DNA from: a virus
Length of the DNA stretch: 31,367 nucleotides
Direction: 5' to 3' (one strand)
IMG/VR virus record: IMGVR_UViG_3300032360_000033
Span: 1-31,367 of that record
The position numbers and the translations under genes were made by a program. Under the pieces are notes generated by a model. That model did not search any database and was not told the origin of the DNA. It saw nothing but the letters and a program-made list of their open reading frames with translations. Below are positions 14,601-31,367 of the stretch, one piece after another; within the stretch, counting starts at the first letter, position 1, and each line of letters begins with the position of its first letter.

Positions 14601-16447
14601 TTGCCCTAAAAGACAAAGAGTCACAACTAGCTAATTTGCAAAAAAACCGTTACCAGTTGAGTCCAGAAGACAAAAAGGATATACAGCTGAATTATGACAC
14701 CGCGGGCGATGTATTCAATAAATTTGAGACGATGACTCCCGCGCAACGAAAAACGGGCGCGGAAAGGATGGTTGCTCAGCCTTTGCTTACGCCACAATTT
14801 CAAAAAGATAGGGTTTCTCAATGGCTGAAGGACAACGCTAGGGTCAAACGATTAGAAGAGGAGGTAAGCACATTAAAGGCAGCGATCAGTGGTCCCAGAG
14901 TAGCCCAAAAAACTACCGCCGCCGCCCCCACTACGCTGGCGGAGCGGGACGCCTTGCAAACGGATCTAGAAGCTTCATTTAAGAACGCGACGAATCGACG
15001 AGGGGCTCCTCTTTTGGATCAAACGGATACCACCGGCTATCATCCTCTTTTGTCGGCACAAGTGGGAGCGGGATTCAATGTTGAAAACTACAAGTTAACC
15101 AGCGACGAGCTTAAGTTTATTAATCAGCAGACACAGGAGATAAATCAAGCTGTCATGGCGGGAAATGTAGAAGGAGCAAAAACCTTGGCCCTTCAAAGAC
15201 AAAGTGCGGCTGAGGTATTTACTTTAGCTAAGGAAACTGATAACGCTGCAGATAGCGCCAAAGAACTAAGAGAGCACTGGGAACGCATAGACGCCGCCCA
15301 GTCCACAAAATTTTCAGCAGGGCTCAGAAAGGGATTCGATGATGTTGCACAGCAATCTCATTTTATCTATAGGGAACTAGGAGAAAAGCTTCCTGTACAA
15401 TTTAGGGATAACATGGTAGGGGCGATAGGAGCAGCGATGGATAAAACCTCTAGTTTAGGGGACGCACTTGACGGAGTTGCCTTAGCATTTTTAAGTACCA
15501 TGCGTCAGGCTTTTCTGCAGAGCGCGGTAAGCAGTATGATGGGTGCAGGCAAGACTTTGTGGTCTGGTAACCAGCGGGGCGGTTTCATCGCCGCACAAAA
15601 CGGCACGTTTGTAGGAGGAAACAGCACAGGAGATAGACACCCAGCCCTTTTAGAAAGCGGCGAATATGTTTTGAATCGTAATGCTGTCGGAGCTTTAGGT
15701 GGGCCTGATGCTTTGAATTCAATTAATTTTGGAGCGGCCCCTCGTTTCCAAAAAGGTGGAGGGCACCTGATGAAACTTGCAGAGAAAATCCCAAGTTCTC
15801 GTTTTAGTGGCCTCTTTTTGCAGAATAGCAATCCGGAGTATGATGAATACGCTGATGCTGCTGTCGAAAAACAGCAGAAGGCGATGGCGAAACACCAAAA
15901 GAAAGAACAAAAGAAGGCTATGATTCTGAGCACGATAATATCTGGTGTGATGGCCGCAGGAATGGGGGCTTTAAGTAAAGGGGCTAGCAAGTGGAATACT
16001 ACCAGTAAGTGGGGATCTAATCGAGTAGGTGATCCGGCTGGTTGGTCAACGATGAATAAGGTATTCGGACAAAAACCTGAATTTCCGGGAAGTCAAAGAG
16101 GAGGCTTTATTGGTCGTCAAGCTGGTGGTTCAATCGGAGGAGCAGTTGCCCGTCGTTATGGGTTGTTCCAAGGAGGAGGTACTGTACCTGTTTCATCAGG
16201 AGCCCCTTCTTTAGGTGGTTCTACTAACACTAATAATATTAGTATAAATATTGGCTTAGGAGGCGACAATGAGTCCCCGGGTAGTGGGGCTAGCCAAACA
16301 GCGACAGGAAACACAGGGGCACCCTCTAAGGCCAATACAGCGGACGCCAAGGCTTTGAGTGAAAAGATAAAAAGCCAAGTCTTGAAAATTTTAACAGAAG
16401 AACAGCGAGTAGGTGGCACGTTAAGCCCTTCGGCTAGGAGACCATAA
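8696..16447 (+). CDS. Tape measure protein with TP901-type core, PNF repeats and nuclease-like insert
   Basis: The protein has 2583 residues. It spans the tail lumen, sets tail length and is delivered with DNA. Residues about 90-400 have the TP901-1 type tape-measure core (VQKQFADINRILNVSN, EFARQGLGMNETLKRTADAL, TGRGGAVIGNALKTIFTRLQ). A hydrophobic segment lies near 425-450. Residues 549-1155 hold seven motifs of the type (G)Y-(I/V/M)-P-N-F (one has PGF), and between the fourth and fifth is a stretch with E852, D874 and D901-A-K903 that resembles a PD-(D/E)XK nuclease core. Residues about 1243-1327 are a Gly/Ala/Met-rich hydrophobic region. Coiled-coil-like helices follow. The end has HPALLESGEYVLNRNAVGAL (from residue 2315), a common tape-measure tail, then Gly-rich basic segments. 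The last codon overlaps the next ATG (TAATG). At 1.5 angstrom per residue an all-helical chain would span roughly 390 nm. Confidence 0.88.
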   Translation: MIKLDAIINDKKLLASIQKGVDTFNRSTAGKAKLNLKINEKGFRQPLGRITGDLDKFESALAASNARVIAFGASTAVIGGMTKAFKELASTTINVQKQFADINRILNVSNKEFEKFSGSLFDIGKKTATTFDDAAKAALEFARQGLGMNETLKRTADALTLVRLTGVNAEKAVSSLTATVNAFQQSSLTTTEALNKFVAVETKFAVSAKDLMEGLGRVGSAAVDAKVDFDELNAMIAAVQQQTGRGGAVIGNALKTIFTRLQRRDTLTALEQFNVEVQDMEGNILPAMNILQNFAKTYKTLSDANKGYLREQVAGVFQANILSAIVKDINSDFQVYNRALKTSTEATNEAANANARLNQTISALLSQTGTELIRLQENIGKVTFEPIARAILGPFKDIVSNINALLDGEGIGSDFASGLLKGIRNIVAGPGLVAAIAVIGKIFITTVGYITKAIPTLIGITTETQKQANLQATIEALLQSDAGLSKLIAQNEGNAAKQAGILAGHAKAQEKAFKASVTSTGLIASNLRMAGMTTNKSGAIVPGRRGARGYVPGFAGEAADVRKGVGGVSSSARPVHIPNFAFGGGQRGSMVANTGEYMVPNFRGGGSAVFNPAMVRANGGLPQGAKRITAAQGYVPNFKMTTPGQYLQQPGATLGGLRRGVQSGNISSTDMQKNWGGVAAKYGKTGEQRVNQMTTKAAAMRTTGKPKAMQFSMPAKDIKIGAIVGMKSGGKTGYNPSSGFGVIGKEGKIANKGLAQLVRSPAYQGAKFKIKNIPVGAINTIGKGTEKKSAEDVLKEKFTSQMNDIMVPALGKYSSSIFSELFKDDGQTFAQTLTNTRGKRVFSTSVEGGIMESALQFAGQQGSKFGGDDSARWDFEESGKISKPLLDTFFKGKTTQVDRADAKRSDSAPNIKSLIGKSFGTALTANRIARYGPVATAIKGLTAKKAAGGYIPNFAGRGMMTARAPKGTIAARNAGNLQVATKSGLTALVKGIDYKIVGGKARFTAVGEQKTFGADLEKGGTSLMLADGRMVLSNKPLHGMAAMQAKIPANKIESLVVGGGFHNVNTGKLTFRESDFVNSNRLQQVVAGASGYIPNFAGGGLGAAIGREKAAGVPSSAIRINSSPRFQSAGNPAGLAVTNKMDEPRGLRDVPNFADLGTDIVERAGGQAALLGIPGLDKRGKWAASFNKVLAGAAQDWADNRTTTKEFTKVVGKLSNQYGVTGEAQKKVLKNTLALGKQLRPGGGMAGMMAMMMIPMAGGMIEQGVGGQAGSAISGGLTGGVTGGWLGSMAGGALATKFGAAGGMVGGLPGAAIGAGVGALVGATAGIITSLDATADSAASVTAELQALAGGLKSNATAAIQFIQAQKDLAVAATEDELAAAANRATIALESISDTDLAESFAEAGTNVKTLTDNLELWSGKQGIKIKMKAAQAALLSPAGQTTEDEIERLEAVGDQKAIDRKMKGFSRPLAKLLMDPALFGRTGKDARGAEPQEVTDFFKEAASIRSEYNPLDFTGQFSEADFRGLLTKHFGEKGMTGEMIGEMAHVLESLDPGWTIYQAEDQFKKHFDQGFFAEFYGEMFGAQTSGLKESTKTQLQGANYTRDFEALLKSINTSVLTYTEDLAIISHEAAVRNAALTARKGFLGFRGRAANLGEARGVSAANFAGKRQAVDRNVFNQNQASIISNLKSVFKTPAGVRGGFQDVFFGQGGFTQRGAAGGIAKLKEARALAAGAPGTGLGAIAPDAVAGMTTLITKLEAAYKEQMSAILKDEKVQELKFKAEELRARITTEQFRLAVLESKNIHAENMNMSKARGEFDLYKMRQERSVQSPEAMFGLTPMQQVLKKQGASTNIFNKGRELEQKDRLSDARQKFIETKTQVDLNTTTGKLVDANIKLRDAVNALNSTLNGTPTAPTGISPASSHKGPAFQDPLTKADIGIRMGPIESIAKGVSNAVSDFFGGDPELRTQKFALKDKESQLANLQKNRYQLSPEDKKDIQLNYDTAGDVFNKFETMTPAQRKTGAERMVAQPLLTPQFQKDRVSQWLKDNARVKRLEEEVSTLKAAISGPRVAQKTTAAAPTTLAERDALQTDLEASFKNATNRRGAPLLDQTDTTGYHPLLSAQVGAGFNVENYKLTSDELKFINQQTQEINQAVMAGNVEGAKTLALQRQSAAEVFTLAKETDNAADSAKELREHWERIDAAQSTKFSAGLRKGFDDVAQQSHFIYRELGEKLPVQFRDNMVGAIGAAMDKTSSLGDALDGVALAFLSTMRQAFLQSAVSSMMGAGKTLWSGNQRGGFIAAQNGTFVGGNSTGDRHPALLESGEYVLNRNAVGALGGPDALNSINFGAAPRFQKGGGHLMKLAEKIPSSRFSGLFLQNSNPEYDEYADAAVEKQQKAMAKHQKKEQKKAMILSTIISGVMAAGMGALSKGASKWNTTSKWGSNRVGDPAGWSTMNKVFGQKPEFPGSQRGGFIGRQAGGSIGGAVARRYGLFQGGGTVPVSSGAPSLGGSTNTNNISINIGLGGDNESPGSGASQTATGNTGAPSKANTADAKALSEKIKSQVLKILTEEQRVGGTLSPSARRP
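10340..12157 (+). repeat. Cluster of seven (Y)x-P-N-F motifs in the tape measure gene
   Basis: The motif copies start at 10340 (GYVPGFA), 10421 (HIPNFA), 10484 (YMVPNF), 10592 (GYVPNF), 11540 (GYIPNFA), 11966 (GYIPNFA) and 12140 (DVPNFA). All except the first share the DNA word TTCCTAATTTT, so they look like recent relatives of each other or are held by strong codon constraint. They are usually followed by Gly-rich linkers and separate globular-looking segments. Confidence 0.8.
16436..16440 (+). promoter_or_regulatory. Shine-Dalgarno AGGAG, 6 bases before the ATG at 16447
   Basis: AGGAG lies inside the last codons of the tape measure gene at ideal spacing and confirms the TAATG-overlapping start. 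It stands out because most genes here lack such a site. Confidence 0.75.
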
Positions 16448-19237: not shown

Positions 19238-20052
19238 TGGCTAAGTTCATAAAATATGAGAAAGCATTACTTGAAATTGAAAGCCACAGTATTTTGGCCG
19301 AAAGTGCGGAGCTGGGTGTAGAAGCGTCACTCTCCCCGATAGAAAATATAACTGGAAGCGTTATGCGCTATGTGGCGGACGCTCCGTTAAAAGGTACCCT
19401 TTCCTTTAGTCATTATTTAACAGGGTCTCTTCATGAGTTCCTCAATCCTTTGACAAACGTAGAAAGGACGGGTGAGCCATTGAGGGGTAATTTAGGGGGG
19501 ATTGAGTTTGCTAGCGGATATATCAGGAGCCTTCAGTTTTCAGTGTCTCCTATGGCTCCTATTTTAGTGCGTTCTGCGATGGATATTTATGGAGAACTTA
19601 GCGTGTTAGATGCACAAGGGCGTAGCGATGAGGTAATGAGGGGGGTGCAGGACGATCCACGTGCTATCAGTCATGGAGCTCAAACTTATTTGGCTGGAAA
19701 TGATTTTGGTATAAATAATAAATTAGGCTTTTCTTATTCTGTTACATGTGAACGCAATCCAATGACAGTTATAGGGAGCGGTTTGCCTAGTCGGGTTACG
19801 AAAGAAAACGTACAAATTCAAATGACAGTACGTGGAGAGGATTTGGGGACGGTATTGACCACTACTGGATACGCAGCTATCGCAGATGTTTATGTTTATG
19901 GTGTTTATGCAGATGCTGGGTCCTCCGCAATGGGTCGTTTTGGCTGTACGGGACAGGTTCATTCACAGAGCATTTCTGCATCCGAAGGGTCTTCTATGGC
20001 TGGAGAGATTTCGTTATCTCAAGATTATTTAACCGGAAAACAAGTGGTATGA
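19237..20052 (+). CDS. Tail tube-like or distal tail structural protein (paralogue C)
   Basis: The protein has 271 residues and is the shortest of three tube-like relatives. It has an early ELGVEASLSPIENITGSV block followed by GTLSFSHYLT, then FASGYIRSLQFSVSPMAP, and a second round LGFSYSVTCERNPMTVIGSG then VQIQMTVRGED. This order matches the proteins at 3367 and 16447 with loops removed, so it should form a ring at the tube end. Lambda has no gene here, but other siphophages have a distal tail protein at this point. It overlaps its neighbours by one base (TAATG) at the start and by four (ATGA) at the end, so it is translationally coupled to the M-like gene. No enzyme motif is visible. Ring formation is inferred from the fold plan. 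Confidence 0.5.
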   Translation: MAKFIKYEKALLEIESHSILAESAELGVEASLSPIENITGSVMRYVADAPLKGTLSFSHYLTGSLHEFLNPLTNVERTGEPLRGNLGGIEFASGYIRSLQFSVSPMAPILVRSAMDIYGELSVLDAQGRSDEVMRGVQDDPRAISHGAQTYLAGNDFGINNKLGFSYSVTCERNPMTVIGSGLPSRVTKENVQIQMTVRGEDLGTVLTTTGYAAIADVYVYGVYADAGSSAMGRFGCTGQVHSQSISASEGSSMAGEISLSQDYLTGKQVV

Positions 20053-23000
20053 TAATTAATTCTGGAGTAACTAATATAGCAAGAGTACTGCCGTTCGAGG
20101 TGGGTAACGAGTACAAGAAGTACGATGTTGTTTACTATAGTGGTTATACAGATCCGAGCCCCGCCCCTCCCACTCTTCACCCGTGCTTGCAATCTGAATC
20201 CGGACATTGCTACTATACGGGAGACAGCATTACAACCTCAACAATTACTAATCGACCCTACGCAGCCGACACTGAATGGACTACGGGCTTTTTTGCAGAC
20301 GTGTCTTATGGGGCTACTGTTGATTATGAAGCTCTTAATTATACAACAGAGTTTGGTGATGGTTATTATAATGTTTTAAATAAAAGTGAAAATGCGGTGC
20401 GCGCTACCTTTTCAACGAACTTTGGCAAAAGAACTGATCAAGAGACAAAAGCTATCGTCCATATATTAGAAGATTCTTTTAATCGAGGAAATCATCCTAG
20501 TGGGGGTTATAGCGGTATTCCGTGGACGCCTTTTGCTCCTTATAATCAAAGTGGCGCCTTTTTTGTAGAAAGCTTTACGCAGGGCTACGAGTCTCCTGAT
20601 GTTAATAGTGTTTCTACTACCTTTTTTAGAGAAACAGCATCTACAACAAATTGGAAAACCTTATATATTCCTTTTGAAAACACGAGAGAAGATTATACGA
20701 ATAACAAAGCTTATTTTCAGCATGACGCAACGTTTTTACGGCAACTTCCCGACCAAGCAGCCTTAGTACCCACTCAAACAGGGTGGTATTATTTTACAGG
20801 GGAAAAACATGCCGACTATACTCCGCAAACTGGAATTTTAGGGACAGAGTATAACTCGCCAACAGGGCAGTACCCTTTATGGACGAAAGATAATTTTTAT
20901 TTTGATTTAAACCAAAACATCAGTATACCTCAAAATCCTCGTTTCACTAAACAAGACCTAGACAATGGTTTTACCATGAGGTTTGACGAAGGAATTAATA
21001 AAAATTTACTTGCCTTTCCGGTTGAGTTAAAAGGGCGAACAGATAAGGAGGCTCTCGCAATCGTTCACTTCCTTGAGCATCATGCGGGGGTTAAACTTTT
21101 TGAGTTTACACCCCCAGCTCCTTACGATTTTACAAATAAGGTGTTTTTGGCTTCTAGTTGGAGCCATACTATTAACTTTAAAGATAATAATGATGTCACG
21201 ATTAATATGCGTGAATTTCCTATTGATTATTTAAATTTGTCTACTGAGTTCAGGTCTTTGGTGACAGTGGTTAATCGGCCATTAAAAAATCTGTCAGCTT
21301 ATTGGAGTTGGCCAACAGAGGGAGGTGCAACGGGGCCAGTCAGCATAAATCGCTATGCTGGATCTAAATCCACGATAGAAAGAATAGAAAATACAGACTT
21401 TATATCAAATACTGGTATGAAAGTTTTCGCCATAACGGGGCAAAGCATTAGGACGGGATTCTATTTGACAAACAGCGGAAATACCGCCTTAAATACTTTC
21501 ATAGGTTACGATAGTCCTTATCAAGTTTTTGATTTTCCTTCAGGCCATTCGCATAATCCTGTGGTGACGGCGCCGGGTAGTTCTAGTTTTATCCCTTTTT
21601 ACTTTAAAGGCTTTAATGATAATATTACTGCCCCAGAGGTAACAACTGGTCCCGAATCAAGCGGTGTATATACGGCAACGCTAACATTAAAAAATAAGTC
21701 TAATTTTGACAATACTTATGACCCCAGTGGCTTAATTACTTTTGGTATTACCGGATATATTACAGGCTTTGATAAGGCTGCGGGGTTACCTGCTAACTGT
21801 GCTTATCCTTATAGGGGAAATGACGGCCAGACGCCAAATCATCCAGCTCGTTTTTTAATTCAAACGGGCTACTATGATGCTTCGGGGGTACCTCTAAATG
21901 TATTGGCGTGGCAGCATCCTGCTACCGGTCATGATTTAAATCGTTATTCTATTCAATATACTCAAGATAATAGCTGGACAGAGGTTTCAGGAATCCCTTT
22001 AACGGATTCTACTTCTGTGCGAAATATTGCGGGGGTGCAGGGTACCGGCTTTGAAATCAATCGTAAATACATTCAATCTTATGGTTTAGATTTCGCGAAT
22101 ACTGCCGGATATGTTCAGACCAATTTTTATAGTGGAATTTTAGTGCCACCAAGTTTGGCTGGGGATGGTCAAATTCCTGAAGGACTGAGAAATCTTCCAG
22201 ACCCACAAAACACAGGCATCCATCAAGATTCGTATTTTATACATAAAGGACTCTCTCACGATCAAGATTATTATTATAGGATGAGGTCAGAGTATATATC
22301 GCCATACAGCGACATTTTTGGTTCCATGTATGTATATGCAAGTGGAGCTGCGGATTTTAGTACCAATGTTTCCAATCAAGTATCTACCGGTTTGAGCGAT
22401 AGCTCCACTGAGTTTACTGATGCCAGAACAGTGATACCCACGAGATCCAAGCCTGCTTTTAGGGTGTATCTGGACCATGGCTCTTCAAACATTAATTTAA
22501 GCGGGGTGTTTATAGAAGCTTTGGTAGATCGCGGGCTAGTAAAACAAGAGAATGGGCTTGATCTGGTTATTGGCTCGAACCCTACGGCTGCAGATTATCT
22601 TGCCATCGCTGATACCGGGGCTTATGGTAATAACTATACTGGGGTACAATTTATATTGCGCCCGGATTCTCTAGTGGGTGCTGAAGGGGGGGCTTATCCC
22701 GCAGGAGATCCTGATGCAGGTATGATTATTCCTGCTGTAAGGACAGGGTACCAACTGTTAACTGGTGTGGTAAACCCAGCAGACGCAAGTGCCGGTGCTG
22801 ATCCAAATTTACAAAAACCAATAGCTGAAACTCCATCTGTGCTTGTTATGCAAAGCAGTTCTTTAATCGTGGGTCAAGGCGGAGAAGGAGGCGACGGAGG
22901 TGTGACACAGATTGTGCAAGGGGACATAGGAGAGTGGGGGCAGGGCTCTAAAAATAATCAGGGTGAAGATTCTAAATATACCTTGAAGTTAGACTATTCA

Positions 23001-25319
23001 TATACAAAAGATTCTACCGCGGGAGCGGATGCAGGTGATGCGATTTATATTTCACACCCTAGTATTGATAAGTTTTCTATTCGTAAGGATTATAATGCCA
23101 AAATCTATGGAGGCGGAGGCGGCGGAGGGGGCGGAGATCGCTTTTTAGCTGAAAAGATATTTTCCGTTAAATCCGCAGCTCACTCCCCTTGGAATTCTTA
23201 TAAAAATATAGCAGGATCAGTGGGAACATTTAAAAAGGGTTATGGGTTGACCTCAACTTGGACACCAGCAATAAAAATTCGAATCAGCGATGACGGAGAT
23301 GTTCTGGCCACGGTGGGTTCCACCTTTGCAGATACAATATCAGATAATGACTATATTCCTACATCTTATGCGAGTCCGGGCAATATAATTTTTAGAGCTA
23401 AAGATTTTATAGGGATCCATAGAGGGGGCGCTGGGGGTGGAGGAGCTAGCTTTAGGGCTGTTAGCGGAGGAACTCAGTTTTCGGTGCAAGGTATAAAAGA
23501 TTATATAAGCGATTCTTCTTATGGGGGCTATGGCTTCGGGGGGGCCGGAAATCTTCAGAGCGGCGGTGGTGTTGCAAACCATCGAAACGCTGGGTCAGAT
23601 CATGCTAAACACGCTTGGGGAGGAGATGGTGGAGATTACGGTCAGCCCGGAAACATAGGGTATACCTTTAATGAAAAAACTATGGGTATACCTTTTTTGT
23701 TAGATGAGGAAAGCAAAGCAGGAAAAGTTGGAGGGGCTGGGGGCAAAGCTATTCGTATTATTAGTACCAACACTAATTATACTGTGAGTAATTATCGCGG
23801 CAAACTTTTATCTATCACTCCTTCTATGACGCCCATCACAGCCATCCCCGGTTTAGTGGGATATTTTGAAGCAGGTAATAAAAGTTATAACACGGGAACG
23901 ACAGAAGCCGTTAGCGGAGCCGTCACTATTAACAATGTTGGGGGCTATACTATACCCACAACAAGCATCACTGTTTTGGCCACGAGTGTGGACATGAAAA
24001 GCGGAGATGTGATATATTTCTTTGAAGGCACCACGAAGGGAATTTTTACATTAGATGCGAATTTCAGTGCCCCAGTCACAACCCTTACCGGGGTTCTTAG
24101 TGGAGGCACCATACCCGATGCTGCGGTTGGAAATTTTGGGCAAACAGTGACTAAGTGGGTATCCACCAATGACGCCAACGTTTATTTAGAACAAACGACC
24201 ACAGACAACAAGCCAACTCTACAAGACACTGATAAAGAAGATCGAACGGTTGGGGAAGGCTCGGGGCTAACTAGATCAGGGGTAGTAACTGTCCGTCATG
24301 CGTTTTTTAATAATCAAAAATATATTTATTTTAGCCCTACTTTAAGTACTAAAATTAACTATATGAAGCTTCATGGGGCCACTTCAAATGCGGATTACGA
24401 TGGAGATATACAGATCAATAATGTTGGGCAAAGTTATGCGGCGGCAGATGGCATTACTATCGCCATACAGCCTATAGCTTTTTCAATTGCAGCGGGAACT
24501 GTGATTACCTTTCGTGGAGGTTCTATTTTTACAGTGACTTCAGCGGCTACCTATGGTTCCCCGAATCAGATTACCGCATTAACAGGAAACCTATCTGGCT
24601 CTGATTTGCACAATGGTGTTCGGGGTTATTACCGGTTATCTTCTCTGGGTAATGGCTTTGACATCTTTTATGTTATATATCCAAACAGGTGGTTTACCGC
24701 GTCGGGTAACTTTACAGCAGGTACCTCCAGCAACGACAACCAAGTAGGCAAAGATGCCGATTATCAAACGGGCTGGAGCGGGTTTTCCTCAACACAGAAA
24801 ACCCCTTCTGTTTTTTATAACCGCAAGAGCGCTCACGTTACAGATAATGCTGGGCTTGGAAATCTGCAAGAACAGTTTTCTTTTACTGATCGTGGATCTA
24901 CGCGAAGTCGTGATGCTATAGTGGGTAATTATCCTCGTCGGTCGTGGGTATACAATTTAAGTGGAAGTTCTAGGGGGGGAAAGCTGTATTTGACTGCACG
25001 AAATGATGGAAATGCAGTAGGAGGTGATACTTACGAGGGTGATAGTTTTATTTTTAATTCGTCAGGCAGCGTTTATGTGGGGGGAAGCAAAAGGGTAGGC
25101 AGTAGTGCTGTGGATCTTGGCTTCCGAGGAGCAATCGCCGCAATTGTAATTTTTAATCGACACCTAACCTCACGAGAAAAGCGTGAGCTTTTAGGGGTTT
25201 TGTTCAACAAATATTTAAGAACTAAGGCTGCAAACGCAGTAACGCAGGTAGGCCTTGAATATCAAAATAAACGGTCTGATCTCACCGGAATAGCAGGTCA
25301 AATATACTTTACTCCATAA
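20049..25319 (+). CDS. Giant tail tip protein with duplicated lambda M-like domain, Gly-rich and LamG-like parts
   Basis: The protein has 1756 residues. Residues about 10-85 look like a small CBM5/12-type module (YKKYDVVYYSG ... EWTTGFF). Two M-like minor tail domains follow: about 87-144 (TTEFGDGYYNVL ... RTDQETKAIVHILED) and about 290-392 (FTMRFDEGINKN ... RTDKEALAIVHFLEHHAG, then LFEFTPPAPYDF and ASSWSHTINF). An Ig-like region (about 440-570) and a fibronectin-III-like region (about 590-760) come next. Residues about 940-1240 are Gly-rich with nine Gly at 1021-1029, as in polyglycine adhesin tips. The C-terminal third looks like a LamG-type domain that closes with AIVIFNRHLTSREKRELL and holds two copies of a beta repeat (1307-1361, 1469-1526). 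In lambda, gpM is only about 110 residues. The protein probably joins the tube end to an adhesin. Its start overlaps the previous stop (ATGA). Confidence 0.7.
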   Translation: MIINSGVTNIARVLPFEVGNEYKKYDVVYYSGYTDPSPAPPTLHPCLQSESGHCYYTGDSITTSTITNRPYAADTEWTTGFFADVSYGATVDYEALNYTTEFGDGYYNVLNKSENAVRATFSTNFGKRTDQETKAIVHILEDSFNRGNHPSGGYSGIPWTPFAPYNQSGAFFVESFTQGYESPDVNSVSTTFFRETASTTNWKTLYIPFENTREDYTNNKAYFQHDATFLRQLPDQAALVPTQTGWYYFTGEKHADYTPQTGILGTEYNSPTGQYPLWTKDNFYFDLNQNISIPQNPRFTKQDLDNGFTMRFDEGINKNLLAFPVELKGRTDKEALAIVHFLEHHAGVKLFEFTPPAPYDFTNKVFLASSWSHTINFKDNNDVTINMREFPIDYLNLSTEFRSLVTVVNRPLKNLSAYWSWPTEGGATGPVSINRYAGSKSTIERIENTDFISNTGMKVFAITGQSIRTGFYLTNSGNTALNTFIGYDSPYQVFDFPSGHSHNPVVTAPGSSSFIPFYFKGFNDNITAPEVTTGPESSGVYTATLTLKNKSNFDNTYDPSGLITFGITGYITGFDKAAGLPANCAYPYRGNDGQTPNHPARFLIQTGYYDASGVPLNVLAWQHPATGHDLNRYSIQYTQDNSWTEVSGIPLTDSTSVRNIAGVQGTGFEINRKYIQSYGLDFANTAGYVQTNFYSGILVPPSLAGDGQIPEGLRNLPDPQNTGIHQDSYFIHKGLSHDQDYYYRMRSEYISPYSDIFGSMYVYASGAADFSTNVSNQVSTGLSDSSTEFTDARTVIPTRSKPAFRVYLDHGSSNINLSGVFIEALVDRGLVKQENGLDLVIGSNPTAADYLAIADTGAYGNNYTGVQFILRPDSLVGAEGGAYPAGDPDAGMIIPAVRTGYQLLTGVVNPADASAGADPNLQKPIAETPSVLVMQSSSLIVGQGGEGGDGGVTQIVQGDIGEWGQGSKNNQGEDSKYTLKLDYSYTKDSTAGADAGDAIYISHPSIDKFSIRKDYNAKIYGGGGGGGGGDRFLAEKIFSVKSAAHSPWNSYKNIAGSVGTFKKGYGLTSTWTPAIKIRISDDGDVLATVGSTFADTISDNDYIPTSYASPGNIIFRAKDFIGIHRGGAGGGGASFRAVSGGTQFSVQGIKDYISDSSYGGYGFGGAGNLQSGGGVANHRNAGSDHAKHAWGGDGGDYGQPGNIGYTFNEKTMGIPFLLDEESKAGKVGGAGGKAIRIISTNTNYTVSNYRGKLLSITPSMTPITAIPGLVGYFEAGNKSYNTGTTEAVSGAVTINNVGGYTIPTTSITVLATSVDMKSGDVIYFFEGTTKGIFTLDANFSAPVTTLTGVLSGGTIPDAAVGNFGQTVTKWVSTNDANVYLEQTTTDNKPTLQDTDKEDRTVGEGSGLTRSGVVTVRHAFFNNQKYIYFSPTLSTKINYMKLHGATSNADYDGDIQINNVGQSYAAADGITIAIQPIAFSIAAGTVITFRGGSIFTVTSAATYGSPNQITALTGNLSGSDLHNGVRGYYRLSSLGNGFDIFYVIYPNRWFTASGNFTAGTSSNDNQVGKDADYQTGWSGFSSTQKTPSVFYNRKSAHVTDNAGLGNLQEQFSFTDRGSTRSRDAIVGNYPRRSWVYNLSGSSRGGKLYLTARNDGNAVGGDTYEGDSFIFNSSGSVYVGGSKRVGSSAVDLGFRGAIAAIVIFNRHLTSREKRELLGVLFNKYLRTKAANAVTQVGLEYQNKRSDLTGIAGQIYFTP
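23109..23135 (+). repeat. Poly-glycine run (nine codons)
   Basis: Nine GGN codons in a row encode Gly1021-Gly1029 and open a region with many further Gly-rich runs. Mixed GGA, GGC and GGG codons argue against a simple replication-slippage tract and for selection on the protein. Confidence 0.9.
23967..24131 (+). repeat. Beta repeat, copy 1 (M-like protein, residues 1307-1361)
   Basis: The pattern is ITVLATSVDMKSGDVIYF, then GIFTLDA, then TTLTGVLSG and AAVG. It shares spacing with four other copies in this and the next protein. Confidence 0.55.
24453..24626 (+). repeat. Beta repeat, copy 2 (M-like protein, residues 1469-1526)
   Basis: The pattern is ITIAIQPIAFSIAAGTVITF, then SIFTVTSAA, then TALTGNLSG and GVRG. 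Copies 1 and 2 are both preceded by the phrase INNVG. Confidence 0.55.
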
Positions 25320-25323
25320 AACC

Positions 25324-27624
25324 ATGGCAACAGAAGCACACAATAAATCAATAACGGACCTTCTTCCAGATACACTGATAGAGTTGTTTGAAATTCAGGT
25401 AGGAGAGGGCAGAGGCGTAAAAAGATTTCATCCCGGTAAAATTATTGATAAAGATATTGTATTAAATAAAAAAATATATTACTGTCTTCCTATCGAAGCT
25501 ACAGGGTTTGAGTCTAAAGGTGACGGAGCCCTCCCCCGCCCAAAATTGGTAATAGCGAACCCTGACGGTTTAATTTCTGATCTGATAAAAAGGGAGGATG
25601 ATATGGTTGGCCACTCATTTAAAAGAATTAGAATATTTTTAAAATTTTTGGACGAGGTTAATTTTCCAGAAAACGTTAATCCATTTGGTAATTCTGATCC
25701 GGAGTCTCGTTTCGATGACGACTTGTATGTTTTTAATCGCAAAATATCAGAGAATAAATATTTTGTAGAGTTTGAGCTCGTTTCCCCTTTGGAGGTGGAG
25801 AACTATACATTACCAGCGCGCATTATGATTGCAAATTATTGTCCGTGGAAATACCGTGGAATAGGGTGCCGTTATGGATCTAGAGGCGACTATACCGGCC
25901 CTAAGACAAATTTAACTGCTCCAGACAATGTGAACAAGTTGCAATCAATTGATTTTTTTCCACAAAAAGAGTCACAGTTGATAACAGTGACCAAAACTGG
26001 AGGGGCTACGTCAGATGGAGCTCATACGGACGGTCCTTATACCTCGACCCCTATGGATGTTGATGCGTTACCCGTGGCGCTGCGTAGTGGCAATGAGTTA
26101 AAATTTGGGGCTACTGGAGCAGTTTTTACTTTGAGTGCTAATGCTGCGGCGAATGCTGTGGCTATTTATGGTAATCTCGTTGGGGATGTAGCTGATAATG
26201 CGGTTGGCACTTTGAGTTATCCTATAGGTAACTATTCTGCATCTCTAGGTATTGCAGAGACAGTGACCAATGGCGTGTTCGCTACCGATAGTGATTGGAC
26301 CAAAGGAACGGGGTGGTCAATTACTGGTGGAAAGGCAGTAGCCGTAGCGGCAGGGGAGGGTATACTCCTCTCTCAGAGTCCGCTTCAAAGTGCGGTAGCA
26401 CTGGTAATAGGTAAAAAATATCGCATCACCTACACGATTTCAGATAATACCTCCGGGGCGATTAGGGCAAGATTCGGGTCAACTCAATACCTTACAATAC
26501 AGTCGGGTAACGATACGTATACTGAGGATGTTGTTTGTACTTCTTTTAGTGGTAGTGGGGCTGTGCAGTTAGCATTTTCTCCGGGGCCGCATTATCTTGG
26601 CCAGTCGTTTACGGGAAAAATAAGCGCTGTTTCGGTTATACAACTTACCTTCGGCCTTGTTGTAGAAGAGCTTACGCTTAATCTTAGCTTCGGTCAAACA
26701 ATTCGTTTTGCAAATGGTGGGCGCTTTAAATTAGATGCTGAGGCGGATGATGGTGATACAGAAATTTTTGGGGATTTAACGATGGCAGCCGTAGGGGCAG
26801 CAGAGGAAGGAAGAACAATATTAGGCTCAGACCCTCGCGTACAAGGGGTTCCTATGGCAGACGAGAAAGACAAAAGGTTTGATGACCCTAATAGTGGGTT
26901 TAATCTTCAGGGGATGAGGTGGGTTTATGAATATAATCCTACTTTATTTAGTATTGCTCTCAGTGGCTCAACGAATGCCGCGAATGCGGTTGTGTTGTCC
27001 GTAGATAATATCTCCCAAAATATTAACCCTAATCGTACAATCACCTTATCGGACAGCGGTGGATCCGAAATAGGTACCTTTTATGTGACAACTTTGGCTC
27101 GTAAAACAGTTACGGTTGAGTTGGTCAAAGCGGCAGACCCTAGCGCTGATATCTCAATAGAAGTAAAGCCAGTTAACGCTACACTTAAAAAAGGAGAAAT
27201 AATTACCTTTAGTGCTACCCAAAGCGTGTTATTAACCAAGGATGTTAATAATGGAGATGAGGTTTTGTATGGAACGATCACTGGATCTACTATTGCTATC
27301 GGAAGCTCGGGTACTTTACGCACCAAAATCACGGGGAATTTAGTTTTAACCACGGGGAGCAGCGCGCCAGCAACAGCAACAGGCATAGTGGGATATGCCA
27401 AGGGAGATGTGGTGTCAATTAGCTCTTTAGAGGGCGACCCTCCTGCTCTTTTTGTGTGCATTAAGGACCATACTTCAGCCCAAGACCCGCGCTTCAAGAA
27501 AGAGTATTGGGTAGAAGATCAGTGCAGCAAAACCCTGAATGGGTGTAAGATGCGTTTTAGCGACTATCATCACCTTCCTTTTGGAGGCTTTCCATCCATT
27601 GAAGCTTACAGATATACCAATTAA
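25324..27624 (+). CDS. L: Lambda gpL-like tail tip protein with a 550-residue insertion between its cysteine pairs
   Basis: The protein has 766 residues against about 230 in lambda gpL. Residues 1-185 are the L-like N-terminal part and end with LPARIMIANYCPWKYRGIGC, giving C173 and C182. The C-terminal end has DQCSKTLNGCKMRF, giving C734 and C741, and LPFGGFPSIEAY. Spacings of 9 and 7 match the four cysteines that hold an iron-sulfur cluster in lambda gpL. The insertion contains three beta repeats (244-295, 445-496, 611-665), a jelly-roll CBM4/9-like domain (about 314-440, with DWTKGTGWSITGGKAVAV and ISAVSVIQL) and a CBM5/12-like module (691-730, YAKGDVV ... YWVED). It should lie in the tip beside the M, I and J proteins. 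It starts 4 bases after the M-like stop with no Shine-Dalgarno site. The L call is firm; the cluster itself is inferred. Confidence 0.82.
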   Translation: MATEAHNKSITDLLPDTLIELFEIQVGEGRGVKRFHPGKIIDKDIVLNKKIYYCLPIEATGFESKGDGALPRPKLVIANPDGLISDLIKREDDMVGHSFKRIRIFLKFLDEVNFPENVNPFGNSDPESRFDDDLYVFNRKISENKYFVEFELVSPLEVENYTLPARIMIANYCPWKYRGIGCRYGSRGDYTGPKTNLTAPDNVNKLQSIDFFPQKESQLITVTKTGGATSDGAHTDGPYTSTPMDVDALPVALRSGNELKFGATGAVFTLSANAAANAVAIYGNLVGDVADNAVGTLSYPIGNYSASLGIAETVTNGVFATDSDWTKGTGWSITGGKAVAVAAGEGILLSQSPLQSAVALVIGKKYRITYTISDNTSGAIRARFGSTQYLTIQSGNDTYTEDVVCTSFSGSGAVQLAFSPGPHYLGQSFTGKISAVSVIQLTFGLVVEELTLNLSFGQTIRFANGGRFKLDAEADDGDTEIFGDLTMAAVGAAEEGRTILGSDPRVQGVPMADEKDKRFDDPNSGFNLQGMRWVYEYNPTLFSIALSGSTNAANAVVLSVDNISQNINPNRTITLSDSGGSEIGTFYVTTLARKTVTVELVKAADPSADISIEVKPVNATLKKGEIITFSATQSVLLTKDVNNGDEVLYGTITGSTIAIGSSGTLRTKITGNLVLTTGSSAPATATGIVGYAKGDVVSISSLEGDPPALFVCIKDHTSAQDPRFKKEYWVEDQCSKTLNGCKMRFSDYHHLPFGGFPSIEAYRYTN
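26053..26208 (+). repeat. Beta repeat, copy 3 (L-like protein, residues 244-295)
   Basis: The pattern is DALPVALRSGNELKFGATG, then VFTLSANAA, then VAIYGNLVG and NAVG. It lies upstream of the jelly-roll domain. Confidence 0.55.
26656..26811 (+). repeat. Beta repeat, copy 4 (L-like protein, residues 445-496)
   Basis: The pattern is LTLNLSFGQTIRFANGG, then FKLDAEA, then TEIFGDLTM and EEG. It follows the jelly-roll domain directly. Confidence 0.5.
27154..27318 (+). repeat. Beta repeat, copy 5 (L-like protein, residues 611-665)
   Basis: The pattern is VKPVNATLKKGEIITFSAT, then VLLTKDV, then EVLYGTITG and GSSG. This is the most diverged copy. Confidence 0.45.
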
Positions 27625-27961
27625 AAGTGCTTTTTTGAGTTATATAAAGCGCATTTCTTCTTTTCACCAAGAAGAGATATGTGGGCTTGTGGCAGGTAGT
27701 ACTTTGTTTTTTGTTAAAAATATTTCTCCTGATCCTTTTAGTACTTTTTATGTTGATCCAGTTAAGCATTTAGAGGCTTCTAGGTCTCAAAATATAGATT
27801 TTTTCTTTCATTCTCACCCCGGGACTTCATGTAAACCGAGTGCAGCGGACATTGAGTTAGCGAACAACGCTTTAATTTCTTTTTTGATTTTTTCTCCATT
27901 GGAGGATAGGTTTGCTGTTTATAATCCTAAAAGCGAAGAAACCATTTATTTTTCTATTTAA
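27539..27961 (+). CDS. K: JAMM/MPN metalloprotease, lambda gpK N-half-like
   Basis: The protein has a JAMM zinc-protease signature: an upstream Glu in QEEICGLVAG and HSHPGTSCKPSAAD, that is H-x-H followed by ten residues and Asp. With the L-like gene before it and I-like genes after it, this is the lambda K position. In lambda, K also has a C-terminal NlpC/P60 peptidase half; this protein stops right after the JAMM fold, so that half is missing. The longest frame starts at an ATG (27539) that overlaps the L-like gene by 86 bases. A TTG at 27599 would give MKLTDIPIKSAFL, which looks like a natural JAMM start with 120 residues and only a 26-base overlap. I give the ATG but regard the TTG as at least as likely. 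In tails this domain is thought to process a tip component or to act on the cell envelope. Confidence 0.8.
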   Translation: MGVRCVLATIITFLLEAFHPLKLTDIPIKSAFLSYIKRISSFHQEEICGLVAGSTLFFVKNISPDPFSTFYVDPVKHLEASRSQNIDFFFHSHPGTSCKPSAADIELANNALISFLIFSPLEDRFAVYNPKSEETIYFSI

Positions 27962-27972
27962 AAGTGTATAAT
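27957..27972 (+). promoter_or_regulatory. Candidate promoter element TTTAAAAGTGTATAAT
   Basis: It overlaps the stop of the JAMM gene and contains a perfect TATAAT. It ends 6 bases before the ATG of the next gene and is among the strongest copies of the recurrent element. It makes the in-frame GTG at 27964 an unlikely start. Confidence 0.4.
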
Positions 27973-27978
27973 GTAGGT

Positions 27979-28671
27979 ATGATATCCGTTTCTATTGAAG
28001 GTCGTGCCGGGCAAATGTTAGGCACCAAATGGAAGCTTCATGTTGGTACGGTTGGAGAGGCGCTAAGGGCTTTACGCGCAAACGCTGGAAGTGTTTTTGA
28101 AAAGGCTTTAGGCTTATCTAGGGGATATGTGCTTGTGGTAGACGGGATTCCCGCCGAGTCTTCTAGTTGTTTTTTAAAAAAGATTAAAAAAAGCTTATGT
28201 TTTATCCCTGTTTTGGCGGGAGGGTTCGTGACTTTTTGGTATGCGGTATTTTCGCAAGTATTGATTGTAGCTCCCGGTTTGAGTTATGCTGCGGCTGCAA
28301 TTATAGCCACGGTAGTGGTTGTGGTTGCGGTGGCGCTCATTGCTTATGGAATTTATTCTCTTGTTGCCTTGTTGACACAGGATAAAGGGCCTGATATCGC
28401 GGGCGAGGGGACCAACAGTTTTGCTTTTCGTGGGCCTGAAAATGTGGCCGAACAGGGGCAGGTGGTTCCTGTGGGTTATGGCAGATTGCTGAGCGGTAGT
28501 CGCGTTATTTCGGTATCCTCCAGTAATGTGGATAAGCAGGTATGGGAGGATAACAATATGAAGGTATTCGGGGGCATGAGGTCTGTTTATACCAGAAGTC
28601 CAAACGTTGGGTCGGGCGGTGGAATAGTGATAGGACAGGATACGGTTCCGCGGCGTATAGGAAGGCTCTAA
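27979..28671 (+). CDS. I: Lambda gpI-like tail assembly protein, first copy
   Basis: The start chosen is the ATG at 27979, giving 230 residues; the in-frame GTG at 27964 lies inside the GTGTATA element. Residues 1-75 form a ubiquitin-like alpha/beta domain (ISVSIEGRAGQMLG, then TVGEALRALRANAG), ending with FIPVLAGG, as in gpI-type proteins. Two hydrophobic segments follow, about residues 80-100 and 105-130 (SYAAAAIIATVVVVVAVAL), which could insert into a membrane. The C-terminal part has ENVAEQGQVVPVGYGRLLSG and VISVSSSNVDKQVWEDN, then a Gly-rich end. In lambda, gpI is needed for tip assembly but is not found in the finished virion. The gene is followed without a gap by a second copy, and their C-terminal parts are nearly identical in DNA. 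Confidence 0.78.
   Translation: MISVSIEGRAGQMLGTKWKLHVGTVGEALRALRANAGSVFEKALGLSRGYVLVVDGIPAESSSCFLKKIKKSLCFIPVLAGGFVTFWYAVFSQVLIVAPGLSYAAAAIIATVVVVVAVALIAYGIYSLVALLTQDKGPDIAGEGTNSFAFRGPENVAEQGQVVPVGYGRLLSGSRVISVSSSNVDKQVWEDNNMKVFGGMRSVYTRSPNVGSGGGIVIGQDTVPRRIGRL
28504..28623 (+). repeat. 120-base near-identical block, copy A
   Basis: It matches copy B at 29182-29301 with four mismatches in 120 bases (about 97%). It encodes VISVSSSNVDKQVWEDNNMK and the Gly-rich end. Flanking gene parts are far less similar. Confidence 0.92.
28659..28665 (+). promoter_or_regulatory. Shine-Dalgarno AGGAAGG for the second I-like gene
   Basis: AGGAAGG lies 6 bases before the ATG at 28672, inside the end of the first I-like gene. 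It fixes the start at the codon right after the upstream stop. Confidence 0.75.
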
Positions 28672-29364
28672 ATGACAAATATATCTATAGAAGGACATTT
28701 GGCTGAAGTTGTAGGGTCTTCTTGGACTCTCAAGGTTAGAAATTTTATGGAGCTGTTTAATGCCATAGAGGCAAATACCAATAAGTTGCGAAATTATTTT
28801 AATGCGCGTAGCAAGCAATATTGGGCTATTTTCGTTGATGACGAGAGGGTGGATGCTGAAGGGTTTATGTTTCAGAATATTGAAAATAAACACGTTAGAA
28901 TTATTCCTTTATTGGCGGGAGGGGCGAGTTCGCTGGCGGCAGCTATTGTTGCTGCTATTGGCGTGGAGGGAACCGCGGCTTTGATTTTAGAGTTTGTTAT
29001 ATCTGCGATTATTTCTATGGCTATTTCTTTTGGGTTAAGCATGCTGATGGCCAAGTTAATGAAAAGCGATGATCCTGAAGCTGCCAACACTACTTCTTAT
29101 GTTTTTTCTTCTCCCGAAAATGTCAGCCAACAAGGACAGGTTGTACCTGTTGGATATGGAAGGGCAAAGGTGGGGAGCACTGTTATTTCGGTGTCCGCCA
29201 GTAATGTGGATAAGCAGGTATGGGAGGATAACAATATGAAGGTATTCGGGGGCATGAAGTCCGTTTATACCAGAAGTCCAAACGTTGGGTCGGGCGGTGG
29301 AAGTTTTGGCGGGGGAGGGGCTTGGATGTTCCAAAACAGTAGCGCGCCTTTGATACAGCACTAA
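28672..29364 (+). CDS. Lambda gpI-like tail assembly protein, second copy
   Basis: The protein has 230 residues, the same length as the first copy. Its N-terminal domain has ISIEGHLAEVVGSSWTLKV and RNFMELFNAIEANTN, clearly related to copy one but diverged. Residues about 75-80 carry the LLAGG phrase, followed by two hydrophobic segments (SLAAAIVAAIGVEGTAALIL, then ISMAISFGLSMLMA). The C-terminal part has ENVSQQGQVVPVGYGRAKVG and the shared block ending in SPNVGSGGG, but then its own Gly/Phe-rich end. It begins at the codon after the upstream stop with a clear Shine-Dalgarno site, and it precedes the J-like gene by 31 bases. Two I-like genes in tandem are unusual; the two may form a hetero-complex or one may be replacing the other. 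The functional split is unknown. Confidence 0.72.
   Translation: MTNISIEGHLAEVVGSSWTLKVRNFMELFNAIEANTNKLRNYFNARSKQYWAIFVDDERVDAEGFMFQNIENKHVRIIPLLAGGASSLAAAIVAAIGVEGTAALILEFVISAIISMAISFGLSMLMAKLMKSDDPEAANTTSYVFSSPENVSQQGQVVPVGYGRAKVGSTVISVSASNVDKQVWEDNNMKVFGGMKSVYTRSPNVGSGGGSFGGGGAWMFQNSSAPLIQH
29182..29301 (+). repeat. 120-base near-identical block, copy B
   Basis: It pairs with copy A at 28504-28623. The four mismatches are at the GTA/GTG, TCC/GCC, AGG/AAG and TCT/TCC codons; two are silent and two change a residue (Ser to Ala, Arg to Lys). Confidence 0.92.
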
Positions 29365-29395: not shown

Positions 29396-31367
29396 ATGGG
29401 TTACGACGTATTTGATAACGCATCTCACTTAGGGGCGGCTGGTACCAACGGCACGGGAGCTGAGGGTGGTCAAGCCTATGAGCCCGATGATGTTAACGTG
29501 GGTGTGGATGATCACATGCCACCTCCAGATCAGGTGGATCCAACACCTGCCCCAGATGTAACCACCCCTCAGACTCCTACTGGGCCACCGGGAAATGTTG
29601 GGGCACCGGGAAACATAGAAGTAGTCGGTTCAGCTACAGAAGAGGAAAAAGATAAGAAACGAGAAATTTCCAAACAAGGAGGAGCCGGTCCTTCTGGTCC
29701 ATTGCTTGAGTCGTCTTCCACTACTCGTACGCTAGCAGGCACAGTCAAAGTGTCCAATCCGGTGTTAGGAAGAAAAACTAATGCTGATATTGCTGCCATA
29801 CTAGATGGTTTAAAGCAGAGTGACATTTCTCCTTTTATCGATGACTTAAATGTGTTAAAACCATCGGCCCACAAGCCGGCAAAGTTAGAATCAGTGGGTA
29901 TTTATAAGACTATCGATCTTATATCAGAAGGCCCAATAGCGGGGCTATGCGATGCTCAGGGAAATTTAATCCCTTTAGTGGATGGAGCGGATACATTAAA
30001 CGAAAACGGTTTGAAAGGGATATATCTGAACGACGTTCCAGTTAAAAATAGCAGAGGTGGGACACTAAATTATCAAAGAATTCTTTCTGAAATCAAATAT
30101 GGTACCTTAAATCAAGGGTTGATGAAAGACAACGAACAAAAGTCGCTTTCTTTTTTAAGGTCATCTCAAACTTTTAATGTGGGGCTCAAGTTGCCGGGTC
30201 TTAATAAAAAACAATCTAACAATTTTTCGGGGGACACGAAAATAGTAGGCGGCGTGGTCCAGTACGGTGCGTCTTTTAAGCCTCAGATATATAAATCCGG
30301 CCCGCAAGTTGAGGGGCCCAGCGGCTTCGGCTTGGTAGACCCTGAGTATGACATTTACAGCTGGACTGACCCGAGTGCGCCAATAATCGATGGTATAGGC
30401 AGCGGTAGTAATTCGGTCATGAATCAAATGGTTACCGTGGGGGATGAGGCCAATTTTGTTTCTGTTTTTACGCGAGTGGGAGGATTGGAATCCGCGTCGT
30501 ATAGTATGGTGGACCGTATGAGGGAGGCTTTTGCTGTCCAGCCAGTGGTGTATCATCACACTATTACAAACGATAATGTTACTGATATAGAAATTAATTT
30601 ATTTGTGGATCAACTTTTTTTGCGAGATGTTAATCCGGAAATGGCCAAAGATCCATTAAACAATACAGCGTTTTTTGTGATAAAAATCGGATACGAAGAC
30701 AGCGATCGCCTCATTGGTGACGATTCTGGTACAGGCGACACGTTTTATGTCTTTGTTCCTATTTCCGGACTGTGCACTTCAAAGTATGAGCGCTCGTATG
30801 CTTTCCCGTTGCCGGTGATAGCGGAAGATAGAGATCGGCGTGTTTCCATTTGTTTAGCTCACGAAGAGCCAGTTCCTGAGGCCGTAGCTGTAGGGGCGAT
30901 TCAGCGTCAAGCGGGAGTGGCTACTGTAACGGAGATTGTTGACTCTCCTTTGGTATATCCTCATTCTGCTATTATGGCCACTTTGATTGACGCTAGATCG
31001 TTTGGGAGGGTACCCAAGCGTACTTTTGATATGAAGCTGCTTAAAATAAAAATACCGACCAACTATGACAGCGAGAACAGGGAGTATAGCGGGAATTGGA
31101 CGGGCCAGTGGGCAAAATACAAGCAATGGAGTAATAATCCAGCATGGGTTTTTTATGACATGATGTCAAGCAAGAGGTACGGTTTGGCTAAATATGGTTT
31201 TGGTGATGATATTGTTGATAAGTGGAATTTATATTCTATAGGAAAATATTGTGATGAATTAGTAGAAACAGGCTATCGTCCAGCTAATTTACCTCTTCAC
31301 TTTTCAATTCATTCGAACGGTGCGGTTGTCTTTATTAATGACAAGGGTAGCAGGCAAGATGGAACGG
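29396..31367 (+). CDS. J: Lambda gpJ-like host-specificity (central tail tip) protein, 3' partial
   Basis: 657 codons are visible and the frame runs off the window. Residues 1-165 are a Pro/Asp/Gly-rich, probably disordered extension (VDDHMPPPDQVDPTPAPDV), then a basic Gly-rich stretch. The J core begins near residue 168 with YKTIDLISEGPIAGLCD (S177-E-G-P180), continues with IYLNDVPVKNSRGGTLNYQ, and near the end has PHSAIMATLIDARSFGRVP and NNPAWVFYDMMSSKRYGLAK, both typical of gpJ-type hub domains. In lambda the SEGP phrase lies near residue 35, so this protein has an N-terminal extension of about 140 residues. J forms the trimeric tip, and its distal end binds the receptor; that end is outside the window. 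It has an AAATANTATGG start context and no Shine-Dalgarno site, and it is the last gene seen of the tip cluster. Confidence 0.85.
   Translation, partial: MGYDVFDNASHLGAAGTNGTGAEGGQAYEPDDVNVGVDDHMPPPDQVDPTPAPDVTTPQTPTGPPGNVGAPGNIEVVGSATEEEKDKKREISKQGGAGPSGPLLESSSTTRTLAGTVKVSNPVLGRKTNADIAAILDGLKQSDISPFIDDLNVLKPSAHKPAKLESVGIYKTIDLISEGPIAGLCDAQGNLIPLVDGADTLNENGLKGIYLNDVPVKNSRGGTLNYQRILSEIKYGTLNQGLMKDNEQKSLSFLRSSQTFNVGLKLPGLNKKQSNNFSGDTKIVGGVVQYGASFKPQIYKSGPQVEGPSGFGLVDPEYDIYSWTDPSAPIIDGIGSGSNSVMNQMVTVGDEANFVSVFTRVGGLESASYSMVDRMREAFAVQPVVYHHTITNDNVTDIEINLFVDQLFLRDVNPEMAKDPLNNTAFFVIKIGYEDSDRLIGDDSGTGDTFYVFVPISGLCTSKYERSYAFPLPVIAEDRDRRVSICLAHEEPVPEAVAVGAIQRQAGVATVTEIVDSPLVYPHSAIMATLIDARSFGRVPKRTFDMKLLKIKIPTNYDSENREYSGNWTGQWAKYKQWSNNPAWVFYDMMSSKRYGLAKYGFGDDIVDKWNLYSIGKYCDELVETGYRPANLPLHFSIHSNGAVVFINDKGSRQDGT

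Follow-up and report, generated by a model that had tools for sequence, protein, structure and literature searches.

The window, by which we mean the whole stretch of DNA analysed, is 31,367 nucleotides long and corresponds to positions 1 to 31,367 of the virus record IMGVR_UViG_3300032360_000033 in IMG/VR. It carries tail genes in the order M-L-K-I-I-J and a tape-measure-type gene:

8696-16447: tape-measure-type protein, 2583 amino acids (PF10145)
20049..25319, + strand: gpM-type distal tail protein, a fused chain of 1756 amino acids (PF05939, E 2.5e-14, in two stretches)
25324..27624, + strand: gpL-type tail-tip hub protein, 766 amino acids, with a split cysteine-cluster domain (PF05100, TIGR01600, 8iyk_L)
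27539..27961, + strand: gpK-type protein with a JAB domain, downstream of gpL (PF14464, E 5e-8)
27964..28671, + strand: gpI-type tail assembly protein, copy 1 (phrog_32, E 1.6e-21)
28672..29364, + strand: gpI-type tail assembly protein, copy 2 (phrog_32, E 1.9e-29)
29396..31367, + strand: gpJ-type central tail fibre, truncated by the end of the window (phrog_31 and relatives, E 1e-48 to 1e-50)

If both PF05939 stretches of the gpM-type chain are folded, the protein could form a trimer of fused pairs in place of the usual hexamer ring. The same chain contains two beta repeats (residues 1304-1363 and 1468-1528) akin to those in the gpL-type protein. The gpK-type protein is of the short, JAB-only form (140 amino acids) and gave no match to an NlpC/P60 peptidase domain, and the very long tape-measure-type protein implies an unusually long tail.

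The product of 25324-27624 had been called gpL-like in an earlier note on this DNA, and sequence comparison confirmed it as a hub protein of the lambda gpL type. The whole protein matches PF05100 (Phage_tail_L, the phage minor tail protein L family) in two stretches with an E-value of 1e-38 and 133.2 bits (cut-off 25), and TIGR01600 with 6.6e-45 and 153.1 bits, passing the curated cut-off of 70.75. Lambda gpL (PDB 8iyk_L) aligns with both halves (E 1.9e-20). Searched on their own, as the earlier note had proposed, the two terminal pieces each matched the expected part of the family: residues 1-190 correspond to PF05100 positions 9-158 (E 4.5e-32) and residues 725-766 to positions 175-204 (E 7.7e-7, 29.1 bits against a cut-off of 25). 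TIGR01600 is split identically, residues 725-766 alone giving an E-value of 1.1e-6. Scores for the DUF2163 hub subfamily (PF09356) lay below the 22.9-bit cut-off, with 20.9 bits for the C-terminal piece alone and 16.4 for the whole protein, and a Pfam profile search matched no family to the 534 residues between the two halves. Profile matches, our own HMMs, alignments and DNA junctions gave the following layout, all on the + strand:

25324..25893, + strand: HDI-type domain and first half of the cluster domain, residues 1-190 (PF05100)
25840..25869, + strand: first cysteine pair, CX8C (C173, C182), NYCPWKYRGIGC, invariant in 37 relatives and equivalent to lambda Cys173/Cys182
26044..26214, + strand: beta repeat 1, residues 241-297 (own HMM, E 3e-19)
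26254..26655, + strand: jelly-roll-like cassette, about residues 311-444, CBM4/9-like by pattern only (DNA junctions, copies elsewhere)
26647..26817, + strand: beta repeat 2, residues 442-498 (own HMM)
26845..26880, + strand: remnant of a lambda-type linker, GVPMADEKDKRF, residues 508-519 (alignments with lambda GPAVADEYDQ)
26986..27135, + strand: beta repeat 3, residues 555-604 (own HMM, E 2.5e-9)
27148..27318, + strand: beta repeat 4, residues 609-665 (own HMM, E 1.3e-18)
27388..27516, + strand: CBM5/12-like module, about residues 689-731, containing C712 (present in all insert-bearing clade members; weak CBM_5_12 resemblance)
27496..27621, + strand: second half of the cluster domain, residues 725-766 (PF05100)
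27523..27546, + strand: second cysteine pair, CX6C (C734, C741), DQCSKTLNGCKMRF, invariant in 37 relatives and equivalent to lambda Cys205/Cys212

The protein has seven cysteines, at positions 54, 173, 182, 405, 712, 734 and 741. Lambda gpL uses Cys173, 182, 205 and 212 as ligands of its cluster (PMC10721106), and the positions and spacings of C173/C182 and C734/C741 are exactly those given in the earlier note, which had also put the lambda pairs about 23 residues apart and the flanking residues as kept. Both statements hold, as C182 and C205 of lambda are separated by 23 residues and the lambda-type flanking sequence of each pair is conserved. In the window protein the distance from C182 to C734 is 552. 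When the seven cysteines were placed at random, a 9-spaced followed by a 7-spaced pair arose in 0.08% of shuffles, and homology is the stronger evidence for the pairs. A fifth cysteine, C712 (27457-27459), lies inside the CBM5/12-like module, 22 residues ahead of C734; it occurs without exception in the alignment of 37 clade members, is present in L158 and L304 as well, and may belong to the core of that module or serve as an additional partner in metal binding or a disulfide.

The content of the insert is modular and changes fast between close relatives. Clade members carry between zero and four beta repeats, and in the window protein our HMMs resolve four where the earlier note had counted three. 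All clade members with an insert have the CBM5/12-like module next to the second cysteine pair, and the shortest inserts (L158, L304, L038 and L042) contain no other module. The lambda linker AVADEYDQ survives as PMADEKDK (residues 510-517) inside the insert, indicating that modules were inserted both before and after it, at two separate sites. Within the clade the jelly-roll cassette is confined to the window protein and one relative, L001. Two others, L002 and L003, have best segments 90% and 82% identical to the window, and in both the sequences that flank the window's bases of about 26254-26655 abut one another, the cassette being cleanly absent. Its limits (about residues 311-444) were set by these DNA junctions and by the extent of matches in other proteins, as copies with 39-47% identity occur in unrelated phage proteins.

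The labels CBM4/9-like and CBM5/12-like, both taken from the earlier note, denote weak resemblances, the window copies having no significant Pfam match. The jelly-roll cassette gave chance-level matches only in Pfam and PDB profile searches, and among its 17 copies none matched CBM_4_9, with scattered weak matches to families such as DUF642 and CBM31. Residues 689-731 of the window protein did not match PF02839 (CBM family 5/12); the module of relative L304 reached 17.7 bits against CBM_5_12 (E 0.0037), below the cut-off of 26.2, and chitin-type deacetylases were in the top five of the PDB profile search with E-values of 0.5-3.

A scan of viral contigs yielded 46 loci where the gpL part has a relative. 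The C-terminal half is present in 45 of them, the remaining one (L015) being cut by its contig end, and every complete relative has CX8C and CX6C with 124-713 residues between the pairs. All four cysteines are invariant columns both in the alignment of 37 distinct close relatives and among 61 diverse gpL-type proteins, a set deliberately chosen for diversity from which known cases of cysteine loss were left out. The inserts of the window's clade all come from metagenomic contigs, and no relative turned up when bacterial genome contigs were scanned with either the clade alignment or the N-terminal domain. A very diverse gpL alignment contained no stretch of sufficient conservation for scanning a sequence collection.

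For a census of the pairs we used all gpL-type ORFs fetched, of which 179 were complete and unique, a sample shaped by the queries used. The exact CX8C...CX6C arrangement was found in 166, both pairs with somewhat altered spacing in ten, and neither pair in three (cyanophage MED4-117, marine virus AG-345-A17 and L306); the cysteines of L086, L089 and L309 were judged by eye. None of the 179 kept one pair without the other. The earlier note had named beforehand homologues of the same length with one pair missing as one finding that would speak against its reading, and the search for them returned none. The distance between the pairs is 22-26 residues in canonical gpL versus 79-713 in the window's clade, with no values of 30-60 in this query-shaped sample.

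Structure prediction gave results of different quality for long and short proteins. Built with 37 relatives, the AlphaFold model of the full-length window protein was poor (mean pLDDT 59.9, pTM 0.44), and the Foldseek matches of this model are still headed by lambda gpL, T1 and JBD30. For the short relative L038, which has 125 residues between the pairs, prediction with 61 sequences reached a mean pLDDT of 78. Lambda gpL is the best structural match of the L038 model, with an E-value of 1.2e-17 and 340 columns in an alignment that spans the insert and takes in both halves, and the top nine matches of the model also include the hub proteins of T1, JBD30, Chi, RcGTA and R4C. The model supports the order of the parts and does not reproduce the orientation of the lambda domains, the rmsd over the full match being 18 Å.

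Comparison with known hub proteins placed the split domain in context. With lambda gpL (8iyk_L, 8k35) the window protein shares the HDI domain, CX8C and CX6C with their conserved flanks, the linker motif ADExD and a gene neighbourhood of the M-L-K-I-J type, whereas the short lambda stretch between C182 and C205 is replaced by 552 residues with at least six modules. In the RcGTA hub an ion-binding domain formed by residues 143-167 and 250-263 surrounds an oligosaccharide-binding domain (residues 168-249) (PMC7296036), and the R4C hub has the same layout (PMC10276861). RcGTA g13 (6tba) and the roseophage R4C hub (8gtc) have a two-segment iron-sulfur domain around an inserted, oligosaccharide-binding-type domain, and the window protein, with its insert between the two cysteine pairs, probably shares the division of one metal site; the two hubs differ from it in belonging to a more distant hub subfamily, aligning with JBD30, a DUF2163 protein, and in that their insert is one domain of ~82 residues that is absent from the window protein. 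In JBD30, Cys147, 156, 238 and 245 coordinate one metal, whose identity as Fe-S is not settled by that paper (PMC11445458). We confirmed these positions in the sequence of the JBD30 upper baseplate protein gp50 (8rk3), which has the same spacings of 9 and 7 with a domain of ~81 residues between the pairs. Chi gp27 (8vjh) has a homologous layout with CX6C as second pair and aligns over its whole length with JBD30. Unlike the window protein, JBD30 and Chi have a single small domain without modular expansion.

A domain of ~80 residues thus lies between the pairs in RcGTA, R4C, JBD30 and Chi, and a solved metal or Fe-S site between split pairs is known for the first three, so that the principle of a split site is not new. 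New here are the size, the modularity and the rapid turnover of the insert within the gpL family proper. Our search of the literature for insertions in gpL, or for a hotspot of them, yielded RcGTA, R4C and JBD30 and, beyond these, only a remark on LSH1, where the C-terminal region of gpL was called hypervariable.

In lambda, three copies of gpL are present in the tip, each with its Fe-S domain on the outside (PMC10721106), and upon receptor binding this domain undergoes a rigid-body rotation away from the axis (PMC11101478). The window encodes a lambda-type gpL in which a modular insert of ~550 residues splits the four-cysteine C-terminal domain between the second and third ligands. We consider it probable that this insert reaches outward, where it would contact host glycans. 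As in lambda, both halves most likely make up a single fold around one cluster, be it Fe-S or another metal, and judged from sequence and analogy it is very likely that C173/C182 and C734/C741 share that cluster. We infer the metal cluster, the outward position and the glycan binding as follows. The insert would leave and re-enter the cluster domain at one stapled point and, because the lambda Fe-S domain is both external and rotating, it would be held there facing outward, probably displayed sideways and toward the cell in three copies, and be swung as the tip opens. Looping-out of the insert from a metal-stapled base, as the earlier note had proposed, is well supported by homology, by the joint retention or loss of the pairs and by the RcGTA, R4C, JBD30 and Chi structures. 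As to the task of the insert, we lean towards auxiliary contacts of the CBM5/12-like module and the exchangeable beta cassettes with glycans on the host surface as the most likely one, because of that module, the cassette turnover and the parallels with RcGTA and R4C.

The split cluster might also form around an insert that is purely architectural and serves as a collar, spacer or docking platform without binding host glycans, which we regard as rather unlikely. Possible docking partners are side fibres or the large gpM-type fusion; the insert consists mostly of beta repeats and shares them with this 1756-residue neighbour, so the two proteins could pack together, and in the profile searches no insert module passed the cut-off of a sugar-binding family. 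The jelly-roll cassette, however, is rapidly gained and lost among proteins that are 82-90% identical and is also found in unrelated phage proteins, which resembles the behaviour of host-interaction cassettes and not of a structural part, and the equivalent inserts of RcGTA and R4C were named oligosaccharide-binding by their fold.

It is improbable that the two pairs no longer sit on one cluster and instead bind separate ions, pair across chains of the trimer or form disulfides. The ~550 residues between them would allow such arrangements, the full-length model (pLDDT 59.9) is too poor to read cysteine contacts from, and C712, likewise invariant in the clade, makes other ligand sets possible. 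Against this, one metal site is maintained across an insert of ~82 residues in JBD30, R4C and RcGTA, both pairs are retained or lost together among the 179 ORFs, the Fe-S domain is a single fold unit in lambda, and the flanks of both pairs are lambda-like. That a gpL start was fused to an unrelated gene by misassembly or in a chimeric contig, as could be suspected for a metagenomic virus fragment without a relative in the bacterial genome contigs scanned, is ruled out by independent contigs, since this order recurs in 45 relatives, whose separate contigs stem from many samples, and the gene is a single open frame with syntenic tail genes on both sides.

The place between the second and third cysteine is also occupied in other gpL proteins. 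Synechococcus phage S-CBS4 gp036 and the S-2L minor tail protein are gpL of the PF05100 type with both pairs and an insert of 180-270 residues in the same position. In cultured S-CBS4 (L308 2965-4362) a gpL of 465 residues has 261 residues between the pairs, and this insert type is common to ~20 metagenomic relatives; in cyanophage S-2L (L341 727-2034) the pairs are 182 residues apart. Unlike the window's modules, to which they show no similarity, these inserts have, to judge from their sequence, long, apparently helical and heptad-rich arms around a central part, and we found no description of them in the literature searched. In the tree of N-terminal domains the inserts of the window's clade group together (94/80), with the helical-arm type placed elsewhere; a single clade for all proteins with an insert was not rejected by an AU test (p 0.10), and it is the unrelated insert sequences, not the tree, that argue for independent origins. 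The S-CBS4 group has two further conserved cysteines in the insert that may be disulfide-linked at the base of its central part.

We tentatively suggest that the gpL cluster may be a general metal staple and the loop between the second and third cysteine a swappable display site into which unrelated modules were inserted repeatedly (in the window protein the CBM5/12-like module with its beta cassettes, in S-CBS4 and S-2L the helical arms, in RcGTA, R4C and JBD30 OB-type domains), with host recognition evolving by cassette exchange while the hub stays fixed. The function of the lambda gpL iron-sulfur cluster is still to be characterised (PMC10721106). If the staple reading is true, the cluster would have a concrete job. 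The natural series with 22-713 residues between pairs, both present or neither, offers a testable answer, namely that the cluster holds the domain so that the loop can carry cargo. The series also marks a site that is hypervariable among uncultured siphophages and probably faces the host, of which no description was found in the literature searched.

Several gpL proteins deviate in other ways. In MED4-117 (L085), L306 (an IMG/VR contig) and AG-345-A17 (L342) gpL ends just ahead of the cluster domain, and the endings are similar, with EFPSxGTF in MED4-117 and AG-345-A17 and IFPSLGG in L306, which lies apart from the other two in the N-terminal-domain tree. AG-345-A17 has an insert within the N-terminal domain instead. 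In the Rhizobium phages RHEph10 and RHph_Y1_11 (L086, L309) the cysteines of the second pair are direct neighbours (CC) and those of the first lie 21 apart, possibly a variant cluster. L295, L297 and L303 combine normal pair spacing with a cysteine-rich insert of ~50-60 residues in the N-terminal domain.

Downstream in the window, the tandem gpI-type proteins are 43% identical, and a near-identical stretch of ~110 bases lies near the 3' ends of their genes (about 28511-28622 and 29191-29302), as if by recent conversion or duplication. The same gpI cross-matches are present in relatives L001-L003.
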